59,184 nt of DNA from Desulfuromonadaceae bacterium (GTDB lineage Bacteria; Desulfobacterota; Desulfuromonadia; Geobacterales; Pseudopelobacteraceae), in assembly GCA_028712665.1 (NCBI GenBank), contig JAQTRC010000006.1, positions 1 to 59,184 of the forward strand, given 5' to 3'. The notes beneath the pieces were generated by a model. That model saw nothing but the letters and a program-made list of their open reading frames with translations, did no database searches and was not told where the DNA came from. Shown piece by piece: positions 27,012-59,184 of this stretch. Positions within the stretch are counted from its first letter, which is position 1. Every line of letters begins with the position of its first letter. Both the position numbers and the translations under genes were made by a program.

Positions 27012-27032
27012 GTAAACTTCTCAGGTGTTAAG

Positions 27033-29377: not shown

Positions 29378-31003
29378 ATGGCAAATATCTCGAAGATAGC
29401 GACATCGAAGTGGAGTCTCCCGCTCGCCTTGTTACTGATTGCGGGATTGACTGCGGCTGTCTTCTGGCCGGTGCTTTATAACGATTTCATAAGTTACGAC
29501 GATACCGATTACGTGACTCTCAACATGATGGTCCGCCAGGGGCTGACTTTAAAGGGGCTCGTCTGGTCCTTCACAGCGTTTCATGCCGGCAACTGGCATC
29601 CGCTCACCTGGCTATCCCACATGCTCGACGTGGAGCTGTTCAACCTGAACCCTCTGGGACACCATGCAACCAGCCTGCTGTTCCATCTCCTCAATTCAGC
29701 TCTTCTCTGCGCCCTCCTCCAGAGGCTGACCGGCTTTCTCGGCAGAAGCATGATTGTGGCGCTGCTGTTTGCGATCCACCCGCTTCATGTCGAATCCGTT
29801 GCCTGGATCTCCGAAAGAAAGGACGTCCTCTCCACCCTGTTCTGGCTCCTGACAATGTGGGCTTATGCCAGCTATTCAGAAAAGCCTGGCCTGAAACGCT
29901 ATCTGCCTGTTGTCGCACTCTTTGCCCTTGGTCTTATGGCGAAACAGATGCTGGTGACTCTACCGGTTGTCCTGCTGCTCATGGACTACTGGCCATTAAA
30001 ACGCCTTACTCCAAGCGATGGGGGGGATAAAATCAACCTGAGCGATTTGAAGATCATACTGATTGAGAAAATCCCTCTCTTCCTCATATCCGCAGCCGCT
30101 TCGCTGGTAACAATCAGGGCTCAGGATTCCGCAGGGGCGCTTGCCCATGGCGACGCAGAGTCGCTTCTGCTCTGCGCCGGGAATGCCTTCATCTCTTATC
30201 TGAAATACATCGGGAACATGTTATGGCCCGTAGACCTTGCCCTATTCTATCCTTTCGAACCCTCGGCCGTAACTCCGCTCAAGGTCGCCGGGTCGGTTCT
30301 TCTCCTGGCGCTGATTTCAGCTCTGGTCATAGCGTGGGGTAAAAAGCGCCCTTACCTGATTTTCGGGTGGTTCTGGTATCTGATTACACTGCTGCCGGTG
30401 ATTGGTTTCATAAGAATAGGGGGACAGGCTTTGGCTGACCGGTATACCTACATTCCGCTGACCGGGCTTATTCTGATGATAGTCTGGGGAGTTGCGGAGG
30501 AAGCGGCTAAATGGCGAAGAGGGATTCCGGCAGTGACGGCTGTTGCAGTAATCGTGATAGCAATCCTCCTGCCACTGACCGTCACGCAGATTGGCTACTG
30601 GCGGAACAGTTACGTTCTGTACAGCCACTCTCTGGCTGCAGTCGAGCGGAACTGGATGGCGCACAACAACATCGGAATACTGCTGGCACAGTACAACCGG
30701 AATGATGAGGCCCTTTTCCACTTTCAGGAATCGGTTCGTCTACATCCGGGAGGAGCGGAAGGATTCAGGAACCTCGGCAATTCCCTTCAGATGGCCGGAA
30801 AAAACCACGAAGCGATTGCGGCCTTCCGCCAGGCGGTCCGGATCGGCCCGAACGATGCGGAGAACCATTATCGTCTCGGATATGCCTATCTGCTGGGGGG
30901 AGACAGCGGCTCCGCTTACCAGGAATACAGGGAGTTACTCGTCCTGGATGAATCACGCGCAGGCTCGCTGCTCGATTCGATCAGGATTCTCGGCAGACGT
31001 TAA
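29378..31003 (+). CDS. TMTC-like polytopic membrane protein with C-terminal TPR repeats
   Basis: A 541-residue protein. The N-terminal two thirds contains about ten membrane helices, with YDDTDYVTLN near the start and FHAGNWHPLTWLSHMLD, plus HPLHVESVAWISERKDVLS. These match bacterial relatives of TMTC/DUF1736 O-mannosyltransferases. Three tetratricopeptide repeats fill the last 120 residues or so (LGNSLQMAGKNHEAIAAFRQ). It may glycosylate exported proteins, with the TPR part binding the target; this is inference from the family. The ATG at 29378 has AAGGA upstream, unlike the ATG at 29345. The stop overlaps that of the convergent ResB-like gene by 4 nt. A homologue lies at 37160-38902. Confidence 0.75.
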   Translation: MANISKIATSKWSLPLALLLIAGLTAAVFWPVLYNDFISYDDTDYVTLNMMVRQGLTLKGLVWSFTAFHAGNWHPLTWLSHMLDVELFNLNPLGHHATSLLFHLLNSALLCALLQRLTGFLGRSMIVALLFAIHPLHVESVAWISERKDVLSTLFWLLTMWAYASYSEKPGLKRYLPVVALFALGLMAKQMLVTLPVVLLLMDYWPLKRLTPSDGGDKINLSDLKIILIEKIPLFLISAAASLVTIRAQDSAGALAHGDAESLLLCAGNAFISYLKYIGNMLWPVDLALFYPFEPSAVTPLKVAGSVLLLALISALVIAWGKKRPYLIFGWFWYLITLLPVIGFIRIGGQALADRYTYIPLTGLILMIVWGVAEEAAKWRRGIPAVTAVAVIVIAILLPLTVTQIGYWRNSYVLYSHSLAAVERNWMAHNNIGILLAQYNRNDEALFHFQESVRLHPGGAEGFRNLGNSLQMAGKNHEAIAAFRQAVRIGPNDAENHYRLGYAYLLGGDSGSAYQEYRELLVLDESRAGSLLDSIRILGRR

Positions 31004-32268
31004 GCGTCTGTAGTATCAATCTTTCCGGCGCCAAGCAGGTCCAGTGCTTCATGAAATATCCCCGCATGTGCTCTTCTCCCCCCCTCGGAACCGGAAAAGG
31101 CCTTCATAATACCGGAATCATCATACCTGAACAACATTTCCTTACGGGGGAAGAAAGTGCGAAGCGGCAACCAGATAACAGCTGCGACAAAAAAGAACAG
31201 AGCGGTCGCCCAGATGAAAAAAACGCCATAATCTCCGATATAATCGGTTACGACAAGACGCCTTGCCTCCGGAAAAGCCATACGGTAGCCGTCACGCGCA
31301 AACTCTCCGCCAACCGGAGCGCTCCCGGAAAAGAGAAGCTCCTCCCCTTTAAGCAACTTGAACTGGAGGGTTTTATCCCTCGCCATATAGGATATGTAGC
31401 GGTCGCTGCTTGGTTCGGGCTCCGGAATAGTGAATACAATTCGATATGGTGAGCCGGATATCGTTTTGCTATCCTCTTTTCCAGGAGGATAGCAGTTCAG
31501 AATGATATGTTTAAGGTAACCGCCCGGCAAGTCGGGAGCTGAGAACTGCAGTAACAGGTCAAGCCCCAGGTAGCGCGGATAGACGAAGGAGCCGCGGTAC
31601 AGGGAGGGAGGATATATCCCAAAGATCCTATCCATCTCTCCTGAATAGGATGGTGCGACTTCTATTGTCAGTGCTCTGGCAAGTATTAAGCCGTTCGATT
31701 TTGCCAGGGCGATCCGTTTCACCGTACCGCCGATCCCTTCCGGCGTGGGCATCGGCTCCCCTTCGATGACCATCTGTCGATGCGAGGCGCGGGTGGTCAC
31801 ACTTATGAGAATGCCGGTGAAGAGACAGAAAGTGCCGGCGAGAAAGAGTATCCGTGCAGGAAAAACAGTGAACCCGCGCCAAGCTGCAAGCGCATTTTCC
31901 GTGCGGCGAGTTTTGTATCCGACGGCTGCAAAACGTCTCTCCAGTCCCGCAAAATGGGGAGATGCAGGCAGCTCGACCATTTCGTCGAACTGCTCCGGTA
32001 TAGCTTCAGTTGCCTTTTCTTTAAACATCTTCCGTTTTTTTAAAAACCTGCCCGTTTCCATCAGAAGACGGAGCGCGCTGTTCAAGGGGATCAGGGCAAG
32101 AAGAACCGCCAGGATAACGCTTTTACCGGTTAATGCCATCAGAGCGATCAGGGTCTCGTCGGTGAAGAAGGCGATCCCGATATAGATGAGGAAAAAGAGC
32201 CCGACAACGATGGGAGGAACGCCCCTCGAAGAGGCTGCAGCCAGGATGGTGCGGATAAGGCGCTTCAT
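31000..32268 (-). CDS. ResB-like membrane protein in an iron-uptake-type operon
   Basis: A 422-residue protein. Two N-terminal hydrophobic segments (about 15-35 and 42-62) and a third near 130-150 precede a large soluble beta-rich region, and one helix follows near residue 350. This layout and segments such as YPPSLYRGSFVYPRYLGLDL resemble ResB-family proteins of system II cytochrome c maturation. The ATG at 32268 overlaps the stop of the DUF2318 gene by 4 nt, so the two are coupled. In the C. jejuni Cj1660-1663 system thioredoxin-like proteins occupy this position; a ResB-like member may do redox work instead. Family match is moderate. Confidence 0.6.
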   Translation of the reverse strand: MKRLIRTILAAASSRGVPPIVVGLFFLIYIGIAFFTDETLIALMALTGKSVILAVLLALIPLNSALRLLMETGRFLKKRKMFKEKATEAIPEQFDEMVELPASPHFAGLERRFAAVGYKTRRTENALAAWRGFTVFPARILFLAGTFCLFTGILISVTTRASHRQMVIEGEPMPTPEGIGGTVKRIALAKSNGLILARALTIEVAPSYSGEMDRIFGIYPPSLYRGSFVYPRYLGLDLLLQFSAPDLPGGYLKHIILNCYPPGKEDSKTISGSPYRIVFTIPEPEPSSDRYISYMARDKTLQFKLLKGEELLFSGSAPVGGEFARDGYRMAFPEARRLVVTDYIGDYGVFFIWATALFFFVAAVIWLPLRTFFPRKEMLFRYDDSGIMKAFSGSEGGRRAHAGIFHEALDLLGAGKIDTTDA

Positions 32269-33605
32269 TTGGCCCCCTCCTTTGCCCGCACAGTTGCCTT
32301 GACGGTTGCCCCCCAACTGTTGATGAGGGTCATGCTGTCGATAACCACCCCTTCACCCCTCTCCGCAAATGGGACCGGAACCGGGTTGCATCCCCCCGGT
32401 TTACCCACTGTTTCGAGAGGAATAAGGGTCTTGCAGTAATAACAGATCACTGTTCCCTCAGCCTGGCCGTACCCGTCCGGTTTGCAGATGGCGCAGGCAT
32501 CAAGATCGACCGTCAACTCTCCGGCAGGGTTCATTAATACGAAGAACCGGGCCTCCCTCTCCCCCTGCTTGAAAATGTATTTGTGCAGTTTGCCATCTTC
32601 CAGGTCCACCTCTCCCCTCTTCGGGATTATGATCTCACCGGATGGTGTCGCAGTGACCGGCAACGGTTTAGGATCCCAGTATTCCACACTCGGGAAACTG
32701 CTCTGATAGGCGGCGGCAGCGAAGATCAGCAGGGCTAGCGCCGGAATAAAGAGCCGGTAGCGGCGTTCCCTGATCGCTGCAGCAAGAAGTCTGCGACGTT
32801 GTGCGCCCTGACGGATATGGGCAACCGAAGGGAGCCGTTCGAAGTGAATGGCCAGGGCAATCAGAATCGCCGGGGTAAACCAGATGACAATCCCCCCCCA
32901 GAAACCGACCTCCTTGCCGAACAGGAAACCGATGTACTTCCAGACAACCGGACGGACGAAGAGGTGGTCCGGGATCAGAATCGATTCCATGAACTGATGA
33001 ACGAAGTCATGAATACCCTTCATCACCTTCATGCTCAAAGGGGAAAAAAGATCGAGGCGGAGGATCGAAGAGGAGCTGAAAAGCAGGAGCGCCACAAGAG
33101 TCGCCAGCATACCTGACGGTGATACCTTGAATGATGCCGGCAGAAGCTTTTCGAGAAGCGGTGCAAGCCCGGTCAGAGCGCAGGCTGACAGTACGAGCGC
33201 CATGTATGCCAGGGCATTGCCGTCGGCTCCCGGAATTTTACAGGCAGAAACCGCCCCCGCAACAATCGCGGTTATACCGGTTACGGCTCCGGCAGATAAG
33301 GAGCCAGTCGCAAACCGCTCACCCCATAAGAGCATCGCACCCCGGCCGGTACTGCAATAAACGGTTGCGACGGATACTCCCCAGAGACAGAGAAAACCAA
33401 CCCCAAGCGACGACTTGATAATCCAGAATGGAGTTGCCCCCTGGAATGCGCGGAAGAGGAGAAGCGCACCGGCCACTCCGAGCAGAAACCCGGATATGCC
33501 TGTCACGGTCACTACGGTACGGCGTACTGGAAACCCTCTCAATAGGACGAGAAGAATCCCTAACCAGGAGAGGAGATGTGGTATCAATTTATAAAGAATT
33601 GCCAT
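32265..33605 (-). CDS. DUF2318 (Fe-S-containing) membrane protein, Cj1660-like
   Basis: A 446-residue polytopic membrane protein with about ten helices and a soluble C-terminal domain. That domain (about residues 365-446) has the DUF2318 cysteine pattern: DACAICKPDGYGQ, VICYYCKTLIPLE and PGGCNPVP. Such proteins occur next to FTR1-type permeases, P19 and ABC permeases in an iron-acquisition system, and are thought to handle electrons or iron at the membrane. Starts at 33605 (GAGG 12 bases upstream) and 33623 are possible; the longer frame to 33665 encodes heptad-derived LQPSAFSLQP and is rejected. It overlaps the ResB-like gene by 4 nt. Confidence 0.75.
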   Translation of the reverse strand: MAILYKLIPHLLSWLGILLVLLRGFPVRRTVVTVTGISGFLLGVAGALLLFRAFQGATPFWIIKSSLGVGFLCLWGVSVATVYCSTGRGAMLLWGERFATGSLSAGAVTGITAIVAGAVSACKIPGADGNALAYMALVLSACALTGLAPLLEKLLPASFKVSPSGMLATLVALLLFSSSSILRLDLFSPLSMKVMKGIHDFVHQFMESILIPDHLFVRPVVWKYIGFLFGKEVGFWGGIVIWFTPAILIALAIHFERLPSVAHIRQGAQRRRLLAAAIRERRYRLFIPALALLIFAAAAYQSSFPSVEYWDPKPLPVTATPSGEIIIPKRGEVDLEDGKLHKYIFKQGEREARFFVLMNPAGELTVDLDACAICKPDGYGQAEGTVICYYCKTLIPLETVGKPGGCNPVPVPFAERGEGVVIDSMTLINSWGATVKATVRAKEGAK

Positions 33606-33626
33606 TTGATGTAGATACCTCATTAT

Positions 33627-33717
33627 AGGTTGAAGGCTGAAGGCTGAAGGCTGAAGGAGAATCAAAACCTTTAACCATGTTTTCCTTCAACCTGCCTTTC
33701 CTTCAACCTTCAACCTG
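33627..33717. repeat. Heptad array encoding the end of the ABC ATPase
   Basis: Left arm AGGTTGAAGGCTGAAGG with two more GGCTGAAGG steps, right arm CCTTCAACC units separated by CTGCCTTT. The right arm (complement of 33687-33716) encodes the last nine residues and stop of the ATPase gene. Confidence 0.9.
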
Positions 33718-34376
33718 TCTTCCCTCACCAGTACCCCGTCATCCAGATGGATTGTCCGGTCCCCCCAGGCAGCCACTTCCTGATTGTGAGTCACCATGAT
33801 AACGGTGAATCGTTCCTCGGCCCGCAGTTCCTTGAGCAGTTCCATAACCATGACAGTGCTCTTGTTATCCAGGTTTCCCGTCGGCTCATCCCCCAGCAGC
33901 AGCTTGGGGCTGTTGATGATTGCCCTGGCGATGCATACCCTCTGCTGTTCTCCGCCCGATAGTTCTCCCGGCCTGTTTTTCAGGCGGTGGCCGAGGCCGA
34001 CACGCTCCAGTGCATGACGCGCTTCAGCCTCGTCGGGTACGCTGTGAAAATACTGGGCCATCATGACATTCTCAACTGCCGTCAGATAGGGAACCAGGTG
34101 ATGCTGTTGAAAGATGATCCCGACAAATTCTCTACGAAAACGGGCCAGACCGTCCTCATTGAGCGCAAGCAACTCTTCACCGCCGACACGCAAGGTACCG
34201 GAAGTTGGGCGGTCAAGTCCACCTACCAGGTTCATAAGAGTGCTCTTGCCGGAACCTGAATGCCCCATCACCGAAAGCCACTCCCCTTCCGGAACCAGCA
34301 AGTCAAGAGGTTTCAGGGCGCAGATATCGCCATAGCTTCTTGTGAGACCGTTTGTTTCGATAATTGCTGATGACAT
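33687..34376 (-). CDS. ABC transporter ATP-binding protein, MacB/LolD-like (Cj1663-like)
   Basis: A 229-residue ATPase with Walker [11 protein letters not shown] loop GIIFQQHH, signature LSGGEQQR, Walker [13 protein letters not shown] and switch histidine in MVTHNQEVA. The size and motifs match the ATPases that serve FtsX/MacB-type permeases. Two such permeases lie upstream in the operon. The final residues RLKVEGKAG and the stop are read from a heptad array, so the native C-terminus probably ended a few residues earlier. With the DUF2318 gene and the two permeases it matches the order seen in C. jejuni iron uptake. Confidence 0.92.
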
Positions 34377-34403
34377 CTCAAAACCTTTCTTAAACTGGTT
34401 GAT

Positions 34404-34511
34404 AGGCTGAAGGCTGAAGGTAAGTCAAAAAACCTTCAGTCTGAAACTCTTTGGTTCGCCGCCTTGTTTTCCTTCACCCTTCAGTCTAAACACCTTCAAC
34501 CTTCAACCTGT
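34404..34511. repeat. Heptad array between ABC permease and ATPase genes
   Basis: Left arm GGCTGAAGGCTGAAGG at 34404-34421. The right part is interrupted, with CCTTCAGTCTGAAA, CCTTCACCCTTCAGTC and CCTTCAACCTTCAACC up to 34511. It separates co-directional genes of the same transporter. Confidence 0.85.
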
Positions 34512-34514
34512 TTT

Positions 34515-35675
34515 TCACTCTCCCCGCAGGCTTCTGACCGGGTCGAGCCTGAACACCGATATCATCGGTCCGATGCTCCCCAGCAGCGCCAGAAACAGGC
34601 TGACCCCCAACGAGATGCAGATAAACCAGGGGATGAAATCGGCGGATGCGGAAAATACCGTGCGGGTAATGAACTGGGCTATGACGCTGCCGAACAGGTA
34701 TCCCGCGACCCCCCCCAGTACCCCCAGCATCGCTGCTTCGCCGCAAAAGATCAGCATTACCTCCCAACGGGTGCCCCCCATAGCCTTCATCAGGCCGATC
34801 TCCTTCCCCCTCTCCAGCACAGTGGTGCTCATGGTGCCGGCCACGCTGCTCCCCGCAGAAACCAGCACCACGGCGGTAACCATAAGCATTAACAGCTTGA
34901 CCTTGGCAAGCAGTCCTTCCGAAGTCCTCGCTGTCTGGCGCACTTCAGTGACCTTTGCCGTGGGGATAAGCATCTGCAGAGCAGCGGCGCTCGTCTTCAG
35001 AGTATCGCCACCCGCAGTCACCATGAGCCTGACGAGGGTAACGAGGCCTCCCAGTCCAAGAGTCTGTTGAAGTTCCGGAAGCGCCATAAACAGAAGGGCA
35101 TCCTCCTCACCACCGGATGTAACGATGCCGGAGATACGCAACTCTCTTTTATTGGCGATGCCGGCCAACTCCACCATATCCCCAACCTTGAGCTTCATCC
35201 GCGACGCCAGGTCATTGCCGACAACCGTCTCGCCGACTTGAGGCCAATTCCCTCTGAGCTGCCACCATGGGAACAACCGGCGGATATCGCTGAAATTAAC
35301 CCCCTCCACCATGACGTCGGCGTCTTTCATATGCAGAGCACCGCGCAGATGAAAAGAAACCCCGGCTTTCAACCCGCTCTTCAGTAGAGCTTCTTCCACC
35401 AGACTCTGCTGCAGATACGCCGGTTCGCTGACAACTCCGAAATTAAGTCCGCCGCTCCCGATATCCAGCCGCGCCGACTCCGGAATGACAATCAGGTTTG
35501 CCCCGTATTTTCGCACCTCTTCCGCCACCCGATTCCCCATGGAGGAAGAAACGATACCAAGGGCGGTGGCCAGGCTTGAGGCCATGGCGAGGACCGCCAG
35601 CAGGAGCAGTGTGCGCCCCTTGCGATGGGCGAGGGCGCGTAAAACGAGATGTATGAGCCAGCGGCGTCGATTCAT
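34515..35675 (-). CDS. FtsX/MacB-family ABC permease (second permease)
   Basis: A 386-residue membrane protein with the FtsX layout: one helix near the N-terminus (about 22-42), a large extracytoplasmic domain, then three helices near 265-290, 315-340 and 350-375. The C-terminal helix-loop ERGKEIGLMKAMGGTRWEVM couples to the ATPase, as in MacB-type permeases. It pairs with the product at 35808-37037 and likely forms a heterodimer. It resembles the Cj1661/1662 proteins of the iron-uptake module. AAAGGA precedes the ATG by five bases. Confidence 0.85.
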   Translation of the reverse strand: MNRRRWLIHLVLRALAHRKGRTLLLLAVLAMASSLATALGIVSSSMGNRVAEEVRKYGANLIVIPESARLDIGSGGLNFGVVSEPAYLQQSLVEEALLKSGLKAGVSFHLRGALHMKDADVMVEGVNFSDIRRLFPWWQLRGNWPQVGETVVGNDLASRMKLKVGDMVELAGIANKRELRISGIVTSGGEEDALLFMALPELQQTLGLGGLVTLVRLMVTAGGDTLKTSAAALQMLIPTAKVTEVRQTARTSEGLLAKVKLLMLMVTAVVLVSAGSSVAGTMSTTVLERGKEIGLMKAMGGTRWEVMLIFCGEAAMLGVLGGVAGYLFGSVIAQFITRTVFSASADFIPWFICISLGVSLFLALLGSIGPMISVFRLDPVRSLRGE

Positions 35676-35691
35676 AGTATCCTTTAAAAGC

Positions 35692-35815
35692 AGGTTGAAG
35701 AGTGAAGGCTGAGGGCTGAAGGAAAGTCAAAGCCTTCAGACATCTGTCTCATTTCCCTAAGTTCTGTTTTCCCTTCAGCCCTCAGCCTAAACACCTTCAG
35801 CCCACCTTCAGCCTT
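35692..35815. repeat. Heptad array between the two permease genes
   Basis: Left arm GGTTGAAGAGTGAAGGC with GGGCTGAAGG, right arm CCTTCAGCCCTCAGCC followed by CCTTCAGCCCACCTTCAGCC. The middle, about 45 bases, contains one extra right-type unit. The stop of the upstream permease (complement of 35808-35810) is in the right arm. Confidence 0.85.
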
Positions 35816-37037
35816 TAAGAACCCTCACAGGTTCGATTAAAAGCGCCCGGCGGAGCGGAGCCACACTGCCGGCAATGGCAACTATAAATGCCGATATGAT
35901 CGCAGTAGGAAAGAGCCAGAGCGGCGATGCAATTGTGGAGTTGAATACCGTGCGGCTGATCAGCTCTGAGAGTTGATCGCCGATCAGGAAGCCGATCACC
36001 CCTCCTGCAAGAGATATAAAAAGAGTTTCTCCGATAAAAATCGTACCGATCTGATAACGGTCGGCGCCGACCGCTTTCATCAGGGCAATTTCCGGGCTCC
36101 TCTCCGCCATGGAGGCCATCAGGCTGGTCGAAACTGCGGTCGCGGAGGCGCCCAGAGCCAGTACGGTGAGAAGAAGCATCACGCTGTTCAGTTTCTTCAG
36201 GAGCGCCCCTTCGGCGCTGGCAATCTGCCAAATCGGTTTGGCGCGACTCCCCCCCATCACCTCTTCGACATTCTTGGCCACTGAGGTAACATACGCGGTG
36301 CAGTACCACTTCTCGTATTCATCCCTGGTCATCGTGGCAGGATCCTTTTTGCCGAAATCATCCATCGGCACGGTCAACGCACTCACCAGCACCCTGGATA
36401 CTTTACCCTGCCGCTGCAGCAGTGACTGGACGGTAACCAGCGGAGCGAAAAGCTGCTCTTCTTCATAGCCGCCGGTGGTGACAACACCGACAATCCGGAA
36501 TTGCTGGATTCGTCCCCGAACGGCGCTCTTTACGTCACTGCCGGGAACAACATTCAGACGTTTCGCCAGCGCAGCTCCGACAATCGCCTCATCAGCATCT
36601 TCAGGCCATCGCCCTTTAACTTCCCACCAGGGTGCAATCCCCTTGATTCCTTGTGTGGAAATATCCTCTCCCGGCACCTCAAGCTGTTTCGCGAACCATG
36701 TTCCGGAAACAACCCCCCGTTCCTTCCGGCCCCCTGCTGAAAATTCGGCTATGCCAAACAGGTAAGGGGTAAACCCGGTGATATTATATTTCCAGAAAAC
36801 CGTCTTAATTTTAGGGAGATCTTCCTCACGCAAAAAACCGCCCCCCTGGGCGGCGGACGGTTCAAGTAGAATGTTTGCTCCATAGCTTCGGAGTTCCAAA
36901 GCCATCTTATGCGAAACCTCACCTGCAATGCCGAGAAAGGCCGTAGCTACGGCAGCGCCCATGGCAATGGAGAGGAACACCAGGAAAACCGCTTTGGGGC
37001 GTTTGAGGAAAGAGTTTTTTAAAATGCGGAAAAGCAC
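35808..37037 (-). CDS. FtsX/MacB-family ABC permease (first permease)
   Basis: A 409-residue membrane protein with the same fold as the next permease: N-terminal helix (about 15-35), an extracytoplasmic domain of about 240 residues, and three C-terminal helices. The coupling segment reads ERSPEIALMKAVGADRYQIG. It starts with GTG, eight bases after GGAG. The last residues VRVLKG and the stop are adjacent to or within a heptad array. It is the first gene of the five-gene iron-type operon; the 122 bases upstream carry no recognisable Fur box. Confidence 0.85.
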   Translation of the reverse strand: MLFRILKNSFLKRPKAVFLVFLSIAMGAAVATAFLGIAGEVSHKMALELRSYGANILLEPSAAQGGGFLREEDLPKIKTVFWKYNITGFTPYLFGIAEFSAGGRKERGVVSGTWFAKQLEVPGEDISTQGIKGIAPWWEVKGRWPEDADEAIVGAALAKRLNVVPGSDVKSAVRGRIQQFRIVGVVTTGGYEEEQLFAPLVTVQSLLQRQGKVSRVLVSALTVPMDDFGKKDPATMTRDEYEKWYCTAYVTSVAKNVEEVMGGSRAKPIWQIASAEGALLKKLNSVMLLLTVLALGASATAVSTSLMASMAERSPEIALMKAVGADRYQIGTIFIGETLFISLAGGVIGFLIGDQLSELISRTVFNSTIASPLWLFPTAIISAFIVAIAGSVAPLRRALLIEPVRVLKG

Positions 37038-37159: not shown

Positions 37160-38902
37160 TTATTTTCTTTCAACCAGCAGGCTTTTCTGATGCAACGCTA
37201 TCTTTAAATTTTCATGCGCTTTTTCATCATTTGGATTCAGGCGTATCGCTTTTGAAAAAAGTACGATTGCATCATCAATGCCCCCCTGCTGCGCCAGAAC
37301 CACACCAAGGTTATTTAGATACTTCGTGTTGTCCGGCTCTATCCTGAGCGCCTCATCCAACTCACGGATTGCCTCGCTCATTTTACCTAAATTCCCCAGA
37401 ATAATTCCCAGCGTGAAATGTGCCTGTGCAAAACCGGGATCAAGAATTATCGCTTCTTTCAAATGTTTTATCCCCTCGGAACTGTTCCCCTGGGCATCAA
37501 GCAGAAATCCTAAATCAAAATGAACTATCGGTTCACGCGGTTCAATTTGGATAGATTTCATATATTCGGCAATTGCCAACTCCGGTTTTTTCTGCTGTTC
37601 ATAAACTAGTCCCAGAGAGTAATGGGCAAAATAGTTTTTCTCAGTGACCTCCAGGGCGTGGCTGAAAAGGGTGAAGTTGTCTCGCCAGTAACCAAGCTGG
37701 AACCATGTTGCAGCTGATAGCAGAATGACAATCCCGACCGCCGCCAACGCGCTGAATTTCCTGATTGCCGGGAGTTTTGAACAGAGTTCGGTTCCACCCC
37801 AGCTCACCATAATGAACAGGCCGATGAAAGGGATGTAGGTATAGCGATCAGCAAAAGCCTGTCTGCCAACCTGAATTATGCCTATTACCGGCATCAATGT
37901 GATCAGATACCAGAACCAGCCCGCCGCCAGATATCTGTATTTGCTGCCGTATTTAATTGCCATGATTGTAATTGCAGAGAGAATTGCTGCGGCAGCCACT
38001 GCTTTCCATAGCGGCACCTGTACCAGCGGATAAATAATTGCGAGATCGAACGGGAAAAGCATCTTTTTGAGATAGACAACGAGAGCCAGGAGTGCATTGG
38101 AACAGCGGTCAAGAAGAGGTACATTCGTGAAATTTGATATATTGGTTTTCTGTGCGAACAGAGTAAGTATTGAGGAGATTGCCGCAAGCAGTACAAAAGG
38201 TATTTTTTCGATTAGCAGAAATCTGAGACTATAACCGTCTTCGACCCGCTTATTGACGGTCTCATCCGGTCCAATTTTTGAAAAAAGTCTTAATCGCAAA
38301 CGATCAAACGGCCAATAATCGAGGAGCAACAAAATAATCGGAACTGTTACAAGCATCGGCTTGGCCATCAACCCAAGCGCAAAAGCGGTCAGTGAAAGCA
38401 GGTACAAACTCCGCTTTGTCTGCTTCAGATAACCGCTGTAAAAAAAGAGGGTCAGTATCAGGAAAAGGGTGCTGAGGACATCTTTGCGTTCCGCAATCCA
38501 GACTACAGACTCCACATGGAGAGGGTGCAGCGCGAAGCAGGCAGCCACAAACGCGCTTCTCCAGACAGCCCCGGTCATTGACCTGAGCAGAAGGAATAAC
38601 AGCGAGGCATTCACTCCGTGGAGTAGAGCATTGACCAGGTGAAATCCTCGCGGATTCAGGCCGAAAAGCTGACTGTCGAGCATCAGAGAAAGCCAGGTGA
38701 GGGGATGCCAGTTACCTGCATGGAATGCGGTAAAGGTCCATCTAATGTTGTCAATGGTTAGGCCCGACGTTATATGGGCATTATTAGTTACATAGTCCCC
38801 GTCATCAATAATGCAAAAAGGGAAAGACGCCCCCCTTGAGTAAATTACCAGCGTAATTACAAATAGGGCAGACATTATTGTCAACGGATAGTGTGATTTC
38901 AC
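37160..38902 (-). CDS. TMTC-like polytopic membrane protein with TPR repeats (second copy)
   Basis: A 580-residue homologue of the product at 29378-31003. Shared membrane-domain segments include DDGDYVTNN, FHAGNWHPLTWLSLMLD, HPLHVESVVWIAERKDVLS and GRQAFADRYTYIPFIGL. Five tetratricopeptide repeats occupy about residues 410-575. Expected role: O-glycosylation-like transfer or related modification of exported proteins at the periplasmic face, inferred from the TMTC/DUF1736 family. The GTG start has AAGG seven bases upstream. It is the last gene of the second glycan cluster, 122 bases before the iron-type operon. Confidence 0.75.
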   Translation of the reverse strand: MKSHYPLTIMSALFVITLVIYSRGASFPFCIIDDGDYVTNNAHITSGLTIDNIRWTFTAFHAGNWHPLTWLSLMLDSQLFGLNPRGFHLVNALLHGVNASLLFLLLRSMTGAVWRSAFVAACFALHPLHVESVVWIAERKDVLSTLFLILTLFFYSGYLKQTKRSLYLLSLTAFALGLMAKPMLVTVPIILLLLDYWPFDRLRLRLFSKIGPDETVNKRVEDGYSLRFLLIEKIPFVLLAAISSILTLFAQKTNISNFTNVPLLDRCSNALLALVVYLKKMLFPFDLAIIYPLVQVPLWKAVAAAAILSAITIMAIKYGSKYRYLAAGWFWYLITLMPVIGIIQVGRQAFADRYTYIPFIGLFIMVSWGGTELCSKLPAIRKFSALAAVGIVILLSAATWFQLGYWRDNFTLFSHALEVTEKNYFAHYSLGLVYEQQKKPELAIAEYMKSIQIEPREPIVHFDLGFLLDAQGNSSEGIKHLKEAIILDPGFAQAHFTLGIILGNLGKMSEAIRELDEALRIEPDNTKYLNNLGVVLAQQGGIDDAIVLFSKAIRLNPNDEKAHENLKIALHQKSLLVERK

Positions 38903-38971
38903 TGCATACCTTTTTATCCGGAGATAGGCTGAGCAAAGCTGTTCGGAAGCCTTGCTGATTAACTTTTGCTG

Positions 38972-40129
38972 TCAGTTAATGCCGGTTTCCGGCTTAACCG
39001 GCATTTTTGTCCGGGGATTGACGTCAGCCATCCCAACTGCCATTTTAAACATGAATGACTGATTGGGCTGCAGAAGCAGCTTGCCCCATAACAGGGCAAT
39101 GACACGATTGGTGTGGCTGGCAAGTGGAGTTTTGGCTTCCGGCTCGCCAACCTTTGCAAAGTCATTTGAGAAAAAAGCATAATCCGGGTGGTTTTCGTGC
39201 TGCCATTCGATGAAGTTTGCTTTATTTGTATAGACATGTTTTTCACCGGCAAGAATATTCCCGTAATCATAGATGCCAGCATGGTCATAATGCGAGGTAT
39301 CTACCGGCATTTCTGTTGTAACGAGGCGATCTTTGAGCCATCCGATATCGCCTGCTGACGTCCCGAAATTTCCTACCCACGGCTCATCTCCATACAAATA
39401 TGAAAATGCCGTACTGGTTTTACCAACATTGATAATCTTGGTGAGCAATGTAACATATGTGTTTCCGACTTCATAAAACAAGGTGCGCTCAACGGTAATC
39501 GGAACATTATTGATTACTGCCTGATGCCTGCTAAAAAGGGTCAAATCTTTTGGTGAGTTTTCCTGCACCCTGCTGTCAATATACTTCCAGTTCTCCGGGG
39601 AGATCAATCTGCTTGACTCGTCAATAATACCTTCATTAGCGTTGCACCAAATGTGATAGTAGCGAGTGCCATCAAAGTACGCCATGCCGGTTTCATTTCT
39701 GTCAAAATAATTGGCGTCAGGGTCGATTGGTGGCAAATTACCCCCCAGTATAAGACCTGAAGGTTTTTTATCAGCGCTGTCTTTGAAGCGGCTCAGACAG
39801 ATCAAAAATTTTCTGCCATCCGGATAGCTTGTTTTGATAAAGCCACGACCAGTTGCTGAATTCCATTCATAATTCATGCATGGGGAGTCCGAAGCTGAAC
39901 AGGCTCCATTTGAAACCACTCGCTTGAAATTTGAAAGCGCATAACCGGTTATAAACCTTTCGATGTCCTCGGGAAACAGGTCATCGGTAATTTCCAGCCA
40001 GGCACCATGTTGCCCTTTGAGCAGAAACACCCCTTCATAGTCACCACAAAAATCAAAGTTGACCTTTAATAGTATTGAGGAGACAACCGACAATACCGCG
40101 GCAGCAAGGAAATATTTTTTTGTGCTCAT
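38972..40129 (-). CDS. Exported protein of unknown family (first of a paralogue pair)
   Basis: A 385-residue protein with an N-terminal hydrophobic anchor or signal (about 7-23). The mature part is predicted beta-rich. Conserved blocks shared with the product at 41963-43144 include ITDDLFPED, RGFIKTSYPDGRKFLICLSRF, MAYFDGTRYYHIWCNANEG, YLYGDEPWVGNFG and NFIEWQHENHPDYAFFSND. The tryptophan and cysteine in HIWCN are invariant between the two. I do not recognise the family. The GGAG site precedes the ATG. A periplasmic or surface role linked to the adjacent GT39 enzyme is a positional inference. Confidence 0.6.
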   Translation of the reverse strand: MSTKKYFLAAAVLSVVSSILLKVNFDFCGDYEGVFLLKGQHGAWLEITDDLFPEDIERFITGYALSNFKRVVSNGACSASDSPCMNYEWNSATGRGFIKTSYPDGRKFLICLSRFKDSADKKPSGLILGGNLPPIDPDANYFDRNETGMAYFDGTRYYHIWCNANEGIIDESSRLISPENWKYIDSRVQENSPKDLTLFSRHQAVINNVPITVERTLFYEVGNTYVTLLTKIINVGKTSTAFSYLYGDEPWVGNFGTSAGDIGWLKDRLVTTEMPVDTSHYDHAGIYDYGNILAGEKHVYTNKANFIEWQHENHPDYAFFSNDFAKVGEPEAKTPLASHTNRVIALLWGKLLLQPNQSFMFKMAVGMADVNPRTKMPVKPETGIN

Positions 40130-52210: not shown

Positions 52211-52639
52211 TTATTTATCCACCTCAGCCCGCATCTCCGGCGACAACGATTCCCGCAGTTCGACTACCTTAACCTTCAATCTCCGCCAGGCGCGAATACC
52301 ATAAATAACTGCTCCGGCCATTAGGAGATGCTTGATCATCAGGGCCGGCACCTGCAGTTTATCGGCAAAATGGTTCCACTCGAAGCTGGTGTAGAAAATA
52401 GTGCGTGGCACACCACCTATAATTATCCACCAGAGCGAAAAGCGGAAGAATTTGACCATCTGCTTATGCATCTTCAGGAAGAATACAGTCGCAACCGGCG
52501 TATTCATCGCAGCCTCTGTACGGACAATGGCATGCAGCACAAAAGCGCTGGCCATCATCAGAGCTGTTGCCACATCATGGAAATAATTATTCATCATGAT
52601 GGCGACCCCAAGGGCGGGGGTTATTTCGAATGTAGGCAT
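52211..52639 (-). CDS. Small membrane protein with intramembrane histidines, unknown function
   Basis: A 142-residue protein with four hydrophobic segments (about 8-22, 28-43, 65-83 and 98-116). Histidines in NNYFHDVAT, FVLHAIVR, KMHKQM and IKHLLMAG could bind heme, a speculation based on position near cytochrome c maturation genes. The C-terminal tail is charged and amphipathic. I do not recognise the family with confidence. GGA precedes the ATG by about nine bases. It is separated from the WG-repeat gene by about 95 bases with weak heptad-like units (52672-52737). Confidence 0.5.
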   Translation of the reverse strand: MPTFEITPALGVAIMMNNYFHDVATALMMASAFVLHAIVRTEAAMNTPVATVFFLKMHKQMVKFFRFSLWWIIIGGVPRTIFYTSFEWNHFADKLQVPALMIKHLLMAGAVIYGIRAWRRLKVKVVELRESLSPEMRAEVDK

Positions 52640-52734: not shown

Positions 52735-53820
52735 TCATTTCTCCTTCTTTGCCGTCGTTGATTTGAAGTGGGTGTAATAATGGGTAAGTTGGTCAATAGA
52801 TCGCTGGTCCCACTCAAAGCGTGGCTCTATTACCATCTTCCCGGTCTTGTCTATAAAGCCGCACTTGTCTCCCACCTTGACCGGCGCAACGCCTTCCACA
52901 AATATCGAACCAGCGTCAAATTGAGGTTTAATGACCATATTGCCCTTTTTATCCATATATCCGACTTTTCCCTTGACCATCATTGGCGCCAGTCCTTCGG
53001 TAAAAATGGTCGGCGAGGGGAACTCCTTGTCAATGATCGGTTTTCCTGTATGGTCAATCAGTTGCCAGGTATCCTTCTTCTGCACCGCCGCAACTCCATC
53101 GTTAAAGTTTGTCGCCAAACTGTACTGGGCAGGTATTACCATTTTCCCGGTATGGTCAATAAAGCCAATCATACCGAATTTGCCGTTTATCTTGACCATT
53201 GCCAGTCCGTCGCGGAACATGGCTGCGTCGTAGAACTGCTCAGGGATGACTACTTTGCCGCTCTTGTCTATATAGCCACGCTTGGCGCCAATTTTAACCG
53301 CCGCCAGCCCTTCGGAGAAATGCGATGCGTCATCAAATTGGGGTTTGATGGCGAATTTGCCTTTGTCATCGATAAAGCCCGCTTTGGCGCCGCTTCCCTC
53401 TGGGACGATCACAGCCGCCATCCCTTCGGTAAAGCCGAATGTCGAGATATATTTGTAATCAGCCACTATCTTTCCGGTCTGGTCAATGTAGCCCCACATG
53501 TCCCCCTTGCGTACTGCCGCTCTCCCATTCAGGAAAATCGAGGCCTTGTCGAAGGTCGGAGGAATTGCCATTTTCCCGTCCGCATCGATATAACCATCCT
53601 TGCCGTCAACTTTAACCGCCGCCAGGCCCTCGGAAAAGATCGATGCAGAAGCATAATTGGGGAGAATGACAAGCGCGCCCCCCTGGTCGCAATATCCAAA
53701 TTTACCGTTGAAATTAACGAGCAGACGTAACGGCTCTTTCAGAGTGACCTTTTTTTCTTCACTTTTGCAAGCGGTGCAAAGTGTCAGTAATGCCAGTGCG
53801 AGTAATAGTAAACGTTTCAT
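52735..53820 (-). CDS. WG-repeat-containing lipoprotein
   Basis: A 361-residue exported lipoprotein. A signal peptide ends in LTLCTAC, giving a lipobox with a candidate acylated cysteine near residue 16-19. The rest is nine tandem units of about 38 residues of the WG-repeat/KWG type, each with a GYID--GK core (for example GKDGYIDADGKMAIPPTFD). These build a beta-propeller-like or solenoid surface and probably bind a partner or ligand. GGAG before the ATG at 53820 rules out the longer start (53886). It follows the ResB gene and a short heptad array. Ligand unknown. Confidence 0.85.
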   Translation of the reverse strand: MKRLLLLALALLTLCTACKSEEKKVTLKEPLRLLVNFNGKFGYCDQGGALVILPNYASASIFSEGLAAVKVDGKDGYIDADGKMAIPPTFDKASIFLNGRAAVRKGDMWGYIDQTGKIVADYKYISTFGFTEGMAAVIVPEGSGAKAGFIDDKGKFAIKPQFDDASHFSEGLAAVKIGAKRGYIDKSGKVVIPEQFYDAAMFRDGLAMVKINGKFGMIGFIDHTGKMVIPAQYSLATNFNDGVAAVQKKDTWQLIDHTGKPIIDKEFPSPTIFTEGLAPMMVKGKVGYMDKKGNMVIKPQFDAGSIFVEGVAPVKVGDKCGFIDKTGKMVIEPRFEWDQRSIDQLTHYYTHFKSTTAKKEK

Positions 53821-53843
53821 TTTATTCTCCATGTATTTTAAAG

Positions 53844-53890
53844 TCAGGCTGAAGGTTAAAGGTATAAGCAAGCCTTCAACCTTCAACCTA
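53844..53890. repeat. Short heptad array between ResB and WG-repeat genes
   Basis: GTCAGGCTGAAGGTTAAAGG on the left faces GCCTTCAACCTTCAACC on the right. It separates co-directional genes. The end of the ResB gene (LKLDR) lies just beyond the right arm. Confidence 0.75.
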
Positions 53891-53891
53891 T

Positions 53892-55256
53892 CTACCTATC
53901 TAGCTTCAACCCTTCTCCAACTATTCCAGCAAACAGCTTGTTAAATTCATCTTCAGCAAGGCTTTTGTAATACTCGGAACGCCCGGCAATCACGAGGCAG
54001 CGTTCTCCATCGATATCACGCACAGCGCCGGAAATCTCTCTCTTGTAGAAAAGCAGCCTCCAGATGACACCGATTGTCGCTAGGGCAAATCCTGCATACA
54101 AGATTGAAAGCCCGCGCTGCTTGACGACGTAAAAGCGGACCCAGAACGGCATATCCCGCATTTCCAGCCGGTAGCCGGCAAATGTCATTGCGCCGTTTTT
54201 CGGGACTGCTGCCTCGGCGAACTTACGGCCGTCCCGTTCGACAGAAATAACAAATACAGGATTGGCAAATTCCATCGATTTCGACGTATGTGCGCCATCT
54301 TTCAACTCGTAATCAGTAAAAAAATCGGCTGTAAAGATGAAGTCGCCAATTCTGAAGGTGTCCTGACGTCCTTTTACAACATCAAGTTTGAAATATGCGC
54401 CATGTATCTCCTTACCCGACTGATCCATGAGAACAAAAAGCGGCGCCACACCTAGGTGCTTGAAGACAAATGATGAGTTGTCTGTGTTATAGGGGGTATT
54501 GATGCCGACTTCGTGAACCTTTCCGCCGGCATCTGCAAGTTTGATACTGATGCCGGTCACCGTATTACGCACGACCCGCGGCTCAATACTCCGGATCGTA
54601 AATGACACATTGGGAATAGAACCGAACTCAGGTAATTTCGCGCTTGGTCTTGAATTGTAACGAGCAAGCTCCCCCTGAAAGTATTCACCCTGTGCAAGAT
54701 CCACATAACCTATGAATTCGGTATAGACACTTATCAATCCACCTAGAAGGACCAAAAAGAAACTGAGATGAAACAGCATGAACGCAATAGGGGCGAGTCT
54801 GTTTTTTACCCCATAAAAACCGGCGCTGTCACCTATAACCGTGTAACGGCTCTTCCTCAGCAGTTGAATAATCTTGTCTCCATCCAGGCCGGGGGGGAGA
54901 GGATATGAATTACGGAACGGAAAGCCCCCTGAAGTGACAGGATCTGTTATATTGGCATCTGATATTTTAATCCGGTTTTTAACAAGCGGCCAACGCTGCC
55001 ACAACACTAACGACAGGTTGAGGAAAAACAGCAGCCATAATGTAATGGTAATCGGAGAAGCATAGACATTAGTCAACCCGAATGTGTCAAGGAAGGAGAC
55101 CAATCCAGGCGAACTCCTCTGCCATTCAAGGTATATTGTTCTCAGCAAGCGTTGCTGCGGAACCCACAGTCCGACTATAAACATCAGGCCGAGCATGCAG
55201 ATGAGCAGAATGGTAAAGCGGAGGGAACTCAAGTATTTTATTAATTTATTGAACAT
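53892..55256 (-). CDS. ResB-family cytochrome c biogenesis protein (second copy)
   Basis: A 454-residue membrane protein. Helices lie near residues 12-32, 66-84 and 154-178, with a large periplasmic part (about 180-390) and a last helix near 385-405. The first helix region, SSLRFTILLICMLGLMFIVG, and GFPFRNSYPLP match ResB. ResB with CcsA forms the system II heme-handling complex that attaches heme to apocytochrome c at the outer face. No heme-binding motif is needed in ResB. It differs from the ResB gene at 56639-57817. Confidence 0.85.
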   Translation of the reverse strand: MFNKLIKYLSSLRFTILLICMLGLMFIVGLWVPQQRLLRTIYLEWQRSSPGLVSFLDTFGLTNVYASPITITLWLLFFLNLSLVLWQRWPLVKNRIKISDANITDPVTSGGFPFRNSYPLPPGLDGDKIIQLLRKSRYTVIGDSAGFYGVKNRLAPIAFMLFHLSFFLVLLGGLISVYTEFIGYVDLAQGEYFQGELARYNSRPSAKLPEFGSIPNVSFTIRSIEPRVVRNTVTGISIKLADAGGKVHEVGINTPYNTDNSSFVFKHLGVAPLFVLMDQSGKEIHGAYFKLDVVKGRQDTFRIGDFIFTADFFTDYELKDGAHTSKSMEFANPVFVISVERDGRKFAEAAVPKNGAMTFAGYRLEMRDMPFWVRFYVVKQRGLSILYAGFALATIGVIWRLLFYKREISGAVRDIDGERCLVIAGRSEYYKSLAEDEFNKLFAGIVGEGLKLDR

Positions 55257-55367: not shown

Positions 55368-56204
55368 TTATCTTACCTGAAATACGTGCAGACTTGTATT
55401 AACCACCAGATTCACACCGAAAAAGCATATAATAACGCTGCCCAGAGCAGCAACTGCAAGCCACGCAAGGCGTTTTTCACGCCAGCCGAAGGTCACCCGC
55501 AGATGGATGGTAATACCGTAAATAAGCCATGAAATGAGAGACCAGGTTTCGACCGGATCCCAGGCCCAGTAGCTCCCCCAGAGGTCTTTTGCCCAGATGG
55601 CGCCGGCTGAGATCATGATGGTATCGGTAATGAAACCAAAAACAACATAGCGAAAAATCAGCTCATCAAGACGCCCAAGAGAGGGGAAACGGTCATAGGC
55701 CGGATTAGGCGTCTCTCTTGCTTCACTCTTCTGTTTCAGCAGGAAAACTACACCGGCTGCCATGGCCAGGGAGTAGGCGCCAAAGGAGAGCCATGCAAAA
55801 TATACATGGATGTACAGCCAGATGGTTTTGAGACTTGCGGCCATTGGAGTCAAAGAGGGGTTCTGCATATAACCGTAGCCAAGCATGATAAGCACCAGCG
55901 GTACGGTAGCGACCGCCAGACCTTGAAGCTGTTTGTTCTGCCATCCGATGAAGAGAGTCCCGGCGATGATGAACCACCCCCCCATCAGTGCGTATTCATA
56001 ATGCCCCGACCAGGGAAGGTGCCCTGTCGCATTAAATCTTGCGCTAATCGCAATTGTCTGGGCGATGAATCCAAAGCAGACCAGCATGGTTATCTTGGAT
56101 ACCACCCGTGGATTCTTGAAGACGAAAGAGTAAATGAATCCCCCCCCCGCCAGGGCGTAAACAATCATTGAAACCAAGTAAAATATCATTTCCCAAAACG
56201 CCAT
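55368..56204 (-). CDS. ccsA: Cytochrome c assembly protein CcsA/CcsB
   Basis: A 278-residue membrane protein with about seven or eight helices. It has the tryptophan-rich heme-binding WGSYWAWDPVETWSLISW near residue 210-227 and histidines in IHVYFAWLSFGAY and YGITIHLRVTFG that would ligate heme. This is the partner of ResB in system II, exporting or presenting heme for covalent attachment to apocytochromes. AAGGAG precedes the ATG by about five bases. It lies between two ResB genes, with a frameshifted gene and heptad arrays around it. Confidence 0.9.
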   Translation of the reverse strand: MAFWEMIFYLVSMIVYALAGGGFIYSFVFKNPRVVSKITMLVCFGFIAQTIAISARFNATGHLPWSGHYEYALMGGWFIIAGTLFIGWQNKQLQGLAVATVPLVLIMLGYGYMQNPSLTPMAASLKTIWLYIHVYFAWLSFGAYSLAMAAGVVFLLKQKSEARETPNPAYDRFPSLGRLDELIFRYVVFGFITDTIMISAGAIWAKDLWGSYWAWDPVETWSLISWLIYGITIHLRVTFGWREKRLAWLAVAALGSVIICFFGVNLVVNTSLHVFQVR

Positions 56205-56638: not shown

Positions 56639-57817
56639 TCAGCCTTCAGCCTTCAGTCTTTTTTCAGCATCATTCCCTACCGCTCTCACCCGACATCCTT
56701 CACCCGTCTCTTCCAGCCAAACTCTTTGCGGTCGAATCATGACCCGCATCAGCAGTCCGATTACGGCGAGTACCCCTCCCAGATAGATCAAAGACATATG
56801 CCTTCTATGCACAACATAAATTTCCGACCAGACTCCCATCGTTTCGCAAGCGACGGCAAAATTGGCCGACCTGCTCAACCTGTCTTTCTGGAATAGCAGC
56901 TCCGTATCGAGAAGTTGTTGCCGCCCCTGATGGACTACAACTCTGAGACGGCTCTTCTCTGGCTGGTAATACACCTTACCGTCGATAACGCCTTCGGCAA
57001 ACGTACCGTAAAAACTAAACCCGTTCTCGTTTTCCGGCAGTTGATCAAGTAGAACCCGGCCGTTGAAAACCAGTTTGCTGCCGTCAATCGTTATCGCAAG
57101 CTTTGGCTCGTAGACCATTTTAGACATATAGATGTCATAGGCGCCAGCCTTGAACGGTTCAGGCGATTTCAGAATTACCGTCCGCTCTTTGCCGTCATTA
57201 AATTGAAACACAACCTCTGTCGCCCCTCTGGGGTACGTGTCATCCGGAAAGAACTGACCGATAATTCTCATTTTTGGCAGCGTTGACAAATCGGTAGTAA
57301 CAGGGCCGACTGAAACCTTTTTGTATGCATCCAGCATCTTCAGGTCTGTCGGCACACCGATGCCGTCACGAATAGTGCCGGAAAACTGGAACAGGTTGTC
57401 CAATGAGCCGGTGAACAGCACAAAAAAGAGCCCGGCATATAAAAGTACGGTGCCCAGATACCCTGTTTCGCGCTTCTCCCCGTAATTCCCGGAGGTGTCG
57501 AACAAAAAACCGGCATCAGCCAGAGTTTTCCTTGCCGCATCGGTTGGACATGCAAGTTCAACCGACCGGCGCGGCATGCCATCACCTGATCCGTAGCGGA
57601 TGCTCTTTTTGATGCCGAGCAGAGTGTATAGAAAGCGGGAGAACAGAAACAGCGTGAAGCAGACGTTATTTAGAAGAAGAGGGTATTTCGAACCTGCGAG
57701 CGGCAGCTTGATGTGGAAGATAACACTCAGTATGACAATAAGCGGGATAATAAAAAAAATGAGAAGTGACCAAGGTGATCTGAGAAAGAATCTGAAGAGC
57801 TTTGAATCAATATTCAT
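56639..57817 (-). CDS. ResB-family cytochrome c biogenesis protein (first copy)
   Basis: A 392-residue ResB-type membrane protein. Its start MNIDSKLFRFFLRSPWSLL is followed by helices near 15-37, 48-68 and 115-140, and a large beta-rich domain with YPRGATEVVFQFNDGKERTV. A last helix lies near 345-365. The frame extends upstream to 57949 through heptad-derived PSAFSLNPFSL, so the ATG at 57817 is used. The final residues RLKAEG and the stop (56639-56659) come from a heptad array. It and the ResB at 53892 flank CcsA. Confidence 0.85.
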   Translation of the reverse strand: MNIDSKLFRFFLRSPWSLLIFFIIPLIVILSVIFHIKLPLAGSKYPLLLNNVCFTLFLFSRFLYTLLGIKKSIRYGSGDGMPRRSVELACPTDAARKTLADAGFLFDTSGNYGEKRETGYLGTVLLYAGLFFVLFTGSLDNLFQFSGTIRDGIGVPTDLKMLDAYKKVSVGPVTTDLSTLPKMRIIGQFFPDDTYPRGATEVVFQFNDGKERTVILKSPEPFKAGAYDIYMSKMVYEPKLAITIDGSKLVFNGRVLLDQLPENENGFSFYGTFAEGVIDGKVYYQPEKSRLRVVVHQGRQQLLDTELLFQKDRLSRSANFAVACETMGVWSEIYVVHRRHMSLIYLGGVLAVIGLLMRVMIRPQRVWLEETGEGCRVRAVGNDAEKRLKAEG

Positions 57818-57970: not shown

Positions 57971-58489
57971 CTATTTGATTCCCTTCTGGTTGATCCCGGT
58001 CAGTTCCATCGTCCCCTTTTTTGAGCGGCCAAAGGTTAGCCGCAACTCTTTCTTCATCTTCTCGTACTGGACTGTACAGGCGTACACAATAAATCCGTCC
58101 GAAGGACGTACCGTGTGGCCGGTCTCTTTTGCGTCCTTGAACGCGCCGGTCTCCTCAAGCTGTTTGTTCCAGAAAGCGACAAACTGCTCTCCTGGGCCGA
58201 CTTTCCTGAACCCCTCGGACGCCTCTTTATAGATAGCCGTAAATTCGCCATTTTTGATTTGAGATAGTACGCGGGTTTTCAGCGCGGCCGCATCGGTCTC
58301 GTCCTGTGGCGTCGCCACTACGGCGGAAGGCTTTAGCGGGGGGCGGCGTCCCGACGTCATCTGGGATTGCGTCTCTCCCGGCTTGATTTCCGGAGCCTTG
58401 GAGGCTTTATCCTGTTTGGAATTGCATCCGGAGAGCGCGGCCAGAAGAATTATGAAAATAACAGGGATAATGTTTCTACTGTAGCTCAT
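57971..58489 (-). CDS. Exported lipoprotein with a DUF4019/DUF3887-like domain
   Basis: A 172-residue protein. The signal peptide ends in LAALSGCNSK, a lipobox with Cys22. A short, charged linker precedes a domain of about 100 residues: AIYKEASEGFRKVGPGEQF, FWNKQLEETGAFKDAKET and TVQYEKMKKELRLTF. This resembles DUF4019/DUF3887-type small exported domains, a weak assignment. GGAG seven bases before the ATG supports the start. It is the first gene of the cytochrome c maturation cluster on this strand. Confidence 0.6.
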   Translation of the reverse strand: MSYSRNIIPVIFIILLAALSGCNSKQDKASKAPEIKPGETQSQMTSGRRPPLKPSAVVATPQDETDAAALKTRVLSQIKNGEFTAIYKEASEGFRKVGPGEQFVAFWNKQLEETGAFKDAKETGHTVRPSDGFIVYACTVQYEKMKKELRLTFGRSKKGTMELTGINQKGIK

Positions 58490-58752: not shown

Positions 58753-59184
58753 TTAGTAACTAACCTTGCGGAGAGTTTTTCTGACAATGCCTGTGCCTGC
58801 GCCCTGTGCGCCGGTGTGGTCATCGCAGCCGCCCCATTGGTCGAACATTTCGCGTCCGTCAGGACCCAGCTGCCCTTCGGTGGCTGCATAGGTGAACGGA
58901 TTAGTCCCAGTAACAGCTGAAGAACCACCGGTTGATACCAATGATTTCTTCGTTCCTGGAGGTACGAGAGTGTAACAGCCCATGGACTTGGCTTGGTAGT
59001 CAAACTCGCCGGAAACGGTCTGCTGGGTCTGCTGCTCCCAGTTCAGGTCGTTGCTGGTGCCGCCAGTTGTGTACTGGTAGGAGCCTCTGGTAAGAGCTGT
59101 AGCTGTTGTTGCGCCGTTCACTCTTGCCGAACCGGCTACGATGGTCCTGACCGGAAGTGTGGTGTAGGTCTGACCACCTGTACC
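58753..59184 (-). CDS. C-terminal part of an exported protein, unknown family, partial
   Basis: The frame is open to the window edge, so the start is outside; the GTG at 59121 is internal. The visible 143 residues are rich in G, T, S, N and Y with little charge, and contain two cysteines (MGCYTL and GGCDDHTGA). The composition suggests a secreted or surface protein with beta structure. No CxxCH heme motif is present in this part. It ends at a strong intrinsic terminator. I do not recognise the family. Confidence 0.5.
   Translation of the reverse strand, partial: GTGGQTYTTLPVRTIVAGSARVNGATTATALTRGSYQYTTGGTSNDLNWEQQTQQTVSGEFDYQAKSMGCYTLVPPGTKKSLVSTGGSSAVTGTNPFTYAATEGQLGPDGREMFDQWGGCDDHTGAQGAGTGIVRKTLRKVSY

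Follow-up and report, generated by a model that had tools for sequence, protein, structure and literature searches.

A five-gene module in a Desulfuromonadaceae bacterium probably represents a branch of the Fet systems that is independent of FTR1 and P19 and was recruited to the assembly of conduit c-type cytochromes in Geobacterales; the evidence is all genomic. It lies in a 59,184-nucleotide stretch of DNA, analysed as a whole and referred to here as the window. Because the module is without an iron channel and travels with heme-attachment genes, it probably helps to build cytochromes and does not import iron.

Gene content of the module

ORF calling identified five intact open reading frames on the minus strand, running from 37037 to 31000 in the order permease, permease, ATPase, DUF2318 protein and ResB-like protein (Table 1). 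A sequence-only reading of this region had named two FtsX permeases, an ABC ATPase and a DUF2318 protein, all of which were recovered by profile searches (PF02687, PF00005 and PF10080). The Walker A, signature and Walker B motifs of the ATPase are all intact. For the DUF2318 gene, which we term FetA-like, the ATG at 33623 is preferred to an alternative TTG start at 33665. The gene for the ResB-like protein (ResBL) starts inside the end of the FetA-like gene through an ATGA overlap (32268-32265). This 4-bp overlap is kept in 41 of 41 related loci, as ATGA in 36 and as GTGA in 5, in agreement with the coupling of the two genes proposed earlier. There is no thioredoxin gene in or next to the module, and no gene for a metal permease or metal-binding protein within it.

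Repeats based on a GGYTGAA heptamer, in both orientations, occupy the module gaps at 33628-33715, 34405-34508 and 35693-35787. They are also found near 8081-8131, 9644-11797, 27031-27117 and 53847-58586, with 41 matches in place of the 0.01 expected, and fill many other intergenic gaps. Since the first permease gap comprises only a few bases in most relatives, the repeats look like inserted interspersed elements.

Table 1 Features of the module, the System II block and the cytochrome fragment in the window.
Feature	Position	Strand	Basis
ResB-like protein (ResBL), 422 aa	31000..32268	-	hhalign against ResB; AF2 model and Foldseek to CcsBA 7s9y; TM helices, His
FetA-like polytopic membrane protein, DUF2318/FtrD-like	32265..33623	-	PF10080 84.6 bits; alignment; comparison with classical FetA
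ABC ATPase, LolD/MacB type	33687..34376	-	PF00005 118 bits; motifs; tree: sister of FetD
FtsX-type permease 2	34515..35675	-	PF02687 63.2 bits; tree: sister of second Fet permease
FtsX/MacB-type permease 1	35808..37037	-	PF02687 55.9 bits, MacB_PCD; tree: sister of first Fet permease
Small membrane protein (DUF8)	52211..52639	-	conserved H21, H36, H104; no recognised family
WG-repeat putative lipoprotein	52735..53886	-	conserved block member; lipobox LCTAC
Canonical ResB (CcsB)	53892..55256	-	PF05140 65.6 bits; TM-His H163, 19/19
CcsA/ResC heme lyase	55368..56204	-	PF01578 139.6 bits; WWD motif, conserved His
Second ResB-like protein (ResBL2)	56639..57817	-	hhalign against ResB 98.2%; weak PF05140; TM-His replaced by Tyr
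Small putative lipoprotein	57971..58489	-	conserved block member; lipobox
Cytochrome C-terminal end	58753..59184	-	33-40% to 10-heme proteins in relatives; runs off contig end

The FetA-like protein and ResBL

The FetA-like protein contains about eight TM helices followed by a C-terminal DUF2318 domain with the motif CxxC-x13-CxxC-x14-C. Alignment revealed the five cysteines to be invariant in the family and intact in the window protein. The membrane domain carries a family-specific motif with invariant H205, D206, H209, E213, D219 and H220. The alignable part of classical FetA and the FetA-like protein is confined to the last TM region plus DUF2318 and leaves out the N-terminal membrane domain. 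A Pfam scan did not find a YHS domain in the window protein, and some classical FetA proteins are also without one. Foldseek searches with the FetA-like model returned only partial matches to Rieske-type oxygenase chains (probability <=0.97, E >0.1). Comparisons by hhalign with CcsA, ResB and DUF8 gave no relation, and the notion of a membrane domain descended from a CcsA-like partner was therefore rejected.

As a single sequence, ResBL has no Pfam match, and searches of NCBIfam and of PDB sequences gave nothing usable; profile-profile and fold comparisons were therefore applied. One of 36 ResBL homologues matched the Pfam ResB profile weakly (E=0.0097). A profile of the 36 homologues aligned by hhalign to the ResB of the same locus with 97.7% probability over 318 columns (E=1.7e-12). 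Reversed controls gave 0.2%, and CcsA, the FetA-like protein and WG also remained below 1%. The AF2 model of ResBL (pLDDT 87) has CcsBA (7s9y) as its top PDB match in Foldseek, with E=1.1e-4 and a probability of 0.99, at a global TM-score of only 0.15. The topology of four TM helices, with a large periplasmic beta domain between the third and the fourth, follows the layout of ResB. By profile and fold comparison, ResBL is remotely related to ResB, as the sequence-only reading had supposed.

TM-His2 of CcsB is a heme ligand (PMC10663686). At this position in TM3, canonical ResB has H163 (19/19), and the window ResBL has a leucine. Since this histidine is lost and no TM histidine is conserved across the ResBL family alignment, ResBL is a ResB-fold protein whose standard site probably binds no heme. 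There is also no conserved cysteine in ResBL; the redox-capable cysteine motif resides in the DUF2318 protein instead. The earlier proposal that redox handling is done by the ResB-type protein may hold, but ResBL has neither of these residues conserved.

Distribution and relationship to the Fet systems

ResBL was detected in 47 of 147 Geobacterales relatives at E<=0.001, with strong matches in 46. Wherever the contig allows, the five genes occur in the same order, with 31 loci containing all five. Culturable carriers include Geomonas, Geotalea and Geobacter sp. AOG1. The survey of other genomes that had been suggested thus upholds the notion of a variant without FTR1 and P19 but with a ResB-type partner. 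Trees placed the module ATPase and both permeases as sister clades of classical FetBCD from Geobacterales clusters, which supports descent from the same heterodimeric ABC transporter. A wider survey with the FetA-like alignment returned Geobacterales only, because its patterns were drawn from that clade.

FTR1 (PF03239) and P19 (PF10634), noted earlier as missing beside the module, were both absent from the whole genome (98.7% complete) in Pfam profile searches, and P19 assignments throughout rest on PF10634 searches. The sequence-only reading had hinged on their not being encoded elsewhere and on the ResB relationship of the last gene, and both points hold. Among the 147 Geobacterales genomes, FTR1 is found in 11 and P19 in 9; FTR1 is missing in 44 of the 47 genomes with ResBL. 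The three genomes that have both FTR1+P19 and the ResBL module (G052, G109 and G113) encode FTR1+P19 apart from the module, in a classical cluster that has a FetA, two permeases and an ATPase of its own.

Linkage to System II genes

The window contains a System II block (52211-58489) on the same strand as the module and ~15 kb upstream of it. Its CcsA-ResB pair is complete, with the WWD motif, His ligands and TM-His all present; CcsA scores 184.3 bits against TIGR03144, just below the cut-off of 187.6. Counting this CcsA, the genome encodes five Cytochrom_C_asm proteins, so the System II set in the window looks dedicated rather than housekeeping. There is no CcdA in the locus, and CcdA-like proteins are encoded elsewhere in the genome. 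The stretch between block and module (37160-51921) contains PMT/TPR-type glycosyltransferase, flippase-like, GNAT/FemAB-like and DegT genes, mostly named by eye, and many other genomes also have PMT/TPR homologues on the flanks of the module.

In most well-assembled loci of relatives, the module adjoins ResBL2, CcsA, canonical ResB, the WG-repeat lipoprotein and the small membrane protein, and more than a dozen loci have less than 70 bp between block and module, with short gaps of 12-60 bp in strains such as those of L091 and L093. Geomonas and strains like AOG1 instead have the System II part directly downstream of ResBL. The same partners thus lie upstream or downstream of the module, indicating that the link survives rearrangement. 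Of the 41 module loci that were fetched, many of which sit on short contigs, 24 have CcsA, ResB or ResBL2 no more than 15 kb away; among named loci whose sequence spans 19 kb or more, the proportion is 15 of 19. At 14 control loci of this order, which are either classical FTR1 clusters or HMA-type DUF2318 clusters, none of the three genes lies within that distance. ResBL has 46 carriers and ResBL2 has 37 among the 147 genomes, with both present in 35 (Fisher p ~1e-21, a value inflated by genome relatedness). They share a contig in 26 of these 35 genomes, and lie within 14 kb of each other in 25 of the 26. Eleven of the 46 ResBL genomes have no detectable ResBL2, some of these with short contigs.

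DUF8 usually lies between the System II block and the module, or at the block end, and in several relatives is found directly upstream of permease 1. It possibly binds heme b.

The cytochrome conduit

The cytochrome fragment at the contig end is the sole match to the 10-heme conduit cytochrome in its own genome, where only this C-terminus of the conduit is assembled. Upstream, several relatives encode a porin-like protein of 403 aa, in which no heme motif occurs, together with two cytochromes, one with 8 hemes and the other a lipoprotein with 10. This arrangement matches the layout of porin-cytochrome (Pcc) conduits (PMC4245776), and the Pcc-type gene content (porin-like protein, 8-heme and 10-heme lipoprotein cytochromes) is found at L198, L050, L202 and L208. 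In the 10-heme cytochrome (L198:3553-5823) and its relatives, invariant cysteines, which may belong to a disulfide or to an unusual heme site, occur outside CXXCH motifs: C514 in 10/11 sequences, and C697 and C732 in 11/11. C732 sits in a CxxH with H735, which is likewise kept in 11/11; we do not claim this as a heme site. Unusual heme motifs were considered as a reason for a dedicated lyase and set aside: 13 proteins contained no CXXCK or CX3CH, and only an occasional CX4CH.

A proposed role in cytochrome assembly

CcsA-ResB carries out heme export and attachment and requires that other proteins have first reduced the thiols (PMC10663686). At this locus, the CcsA-ResB pair would export and attach heme by this known System II chemistry. 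In the periplasm, the FetA-like DUF2318 protein would form a complex with the co-translated ResB-fold protein, which the FtsX-type ABC pair would power with ATP. This complex would most likely prepare the substrate: it might hold the thiols of the apocytochrome, or the heme iron, in the reduced state, or else pass on or release heme or the cytochrome. The module would thereby act on the substrates of CcsA-ResB from the periplasmic side, most plausibly as an ATP-powered reductant or release step. We infer participation in cytochrome maturation; the biochemical step, be it thiol, heme-iron or heme handling, is the least certain part of the proposal.

The assembly role is suggested by the co-occurrence with System II genes, the two gene orders, the conduit upstream, the ResB relation, the sisterhood to FetBCD, the invariant five cysteines, and the absence of FTR1 and P19. 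Against it, 15 kb of glycan-type genes split the two halves in the window, the sister FetBCD is needed for low-iron growth in C. jejuni (PMC10783030), and conserved neighbours need not share a pathway. That same sisterhood, of the ABC genes and the DUF2318 domain to a proven low-iron growth system (PMC10783030), speaks for the acquisition of iron or another metal, the frame in which the sequence-only reading had placed the module. In place of FTR1, the metal path would then run through the membrane domain of the FetA-like protein, where His, Asp and Glu residues are conserved, with support from the ABC pair and ResBL; the invariant membrane motif fits this scheme. However, FTR1 and P19 are both absent from the genome, the neighbours are cytochrome assembly and multiheme conduit genes, and no metal permease or binding protein accompanies them. 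A scan upstream of the module also revealed no Fur-box-like site that stands out, which is a weak test, since most classical loci likewise yielded no such site. Given this context, we regard metal uptake as unlikely.

Alternatively, the ABC genes could encode a machine akin to LolCDE/MacB, whose task would be to release or export the lipoprotein cytochrome of the conduit; the DUF2318 and ResB-like proteins would serve it as adaptors. Among characterised families, the ATPase matches LolD best (212 bits, below the cut-off of 307.75), permease 2 resembles LolC/E, and the 10-heme cytochrome has a lipobox, as do further lipoproteins in the block. However, no lipoprotein partner accompanies FetBCD, the sister module, and a Lol role would not explain why the redox-type FetA-like protein is invariably retained in coupling with ResBL. 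Such a machine is quite improbable. We give little credence to a genomic accident, in which a Fet-derived module of unrelated function would be co-inherited within a respiratory gene island. The patchy distribution (46/147), the 15-kb split in the window and the glycan genes that also recur nearby would fit a chance neighbourhood, but the co-occurrence, the same partners in two different orders, the 0/14 controls and the coupling of a second ResB-family protein within the module itself all argue against it.

A branch without the permease and P19 that is tied to cytochrome assembly uncouples the ABC/DUF2318 core from iron import. It points to a shared periplasmic redox job of this core, which can be tested in Geobacterales, as these are non-pathogenic, and suggests that large cytochromes for extracellular electron transfer may need dedicated ATP-using helpers beyond CcsA-ResB. 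More tentatively, and with considerable doubt, the ATP-driven FtsX-type complex of Fet ABC pair, DUF2318 redox protein and heme-ligandless ResB could be an energised System II accessory for extracellular electron conduits in Geobacterales; the FetABCD half of Fet systems would then generally be a periplasmic redox-delivery machine and not an iron importer.

Comparison with known systems

We found no description of the combination of module, System II and conduit in the open-access literature, although an earlier one may exist. The module shares with C. jejuni FetABCD (Cj1660-1663; fetMP-fetABCDEF) homologous ABC genes, as judged from trees of Geobacterales clusters, and the DUF2318 motif CxxC-x13-CxxC-x14-C. 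Unlike the C. jejuni system, it has no FetM/FTR1, FetP/P19 or thioredoxins, no YHS domain was found in its FetA-like protein, the N-terminal membrane domain of which is non-alignable, and a ResB-like partner and a cytochrome context are added. The gene order differs as well, contrary to the sequence-only reading: the C. jejuni order is fetA(DUF2318)-fetB-fetC-fetD (PMC10783030), with the DUF2318 gene first, and in the window it is fourth. The C. jejuni FetBCD genes are required for growth in low iron, while the role and substrate of the transporter are stated as unclear (PMC10783030).

With System II (ResB/CcsB and ResC/CcsA) the locus shares the full CcsA-ResB pair, and ResBL and ResBL2 have the ResB fold and topology. 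Both are without the TM heme-ligand histidine, however, and neither an ABC transporter nor a DUF2318 protein is a known System II part. The dedicated heme lyases of Wolinella (NrfI and CcsA1) are likewise extra System II machinery for particular cytochromes, but they are fused CcsBA proteins with all ligands and no ABC module. Relatives resemble the Pcc conduits (OmbB-OmaB-OmcB) in what lies immediately upstream: a porin-like protein, a cytochrome with 8 hemes and a multiheme lipoprotein cytochrome. They differ by a heme number of 10 in place of 12 and by the attached assembly genes. Open-access papers on pcc/conduit clusters were found to make no mention of assembly genes beside them. The GSU2500-GSU2493 block, linked to OmcS maturation/secretion (PMC12977616), is similar by position: it too is a conserved set of accessory genes that follows a cytochrome for electron transfer.

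Other DUF2318 clusters

In an earlier account, DUF2318 falls into P19 clusters in almost every case (PMC6083913). Contrary to this statement, the majority of the DUF2318 loci that we examined in the phylum belong to a third type, which is common there and combines a small DUF2318 protein with a single FtsX permease and a single ATPase; an HMA protein is frequently present as well. The genome of the window has such a second FTR1-free cluster on another contig (C153, L040:13160-16237), comprising an HMA-domain protein, a small DUF2318 protein, one FtsX permease and one ATPase. This cluster adjoins a divergent TetR-type gene.
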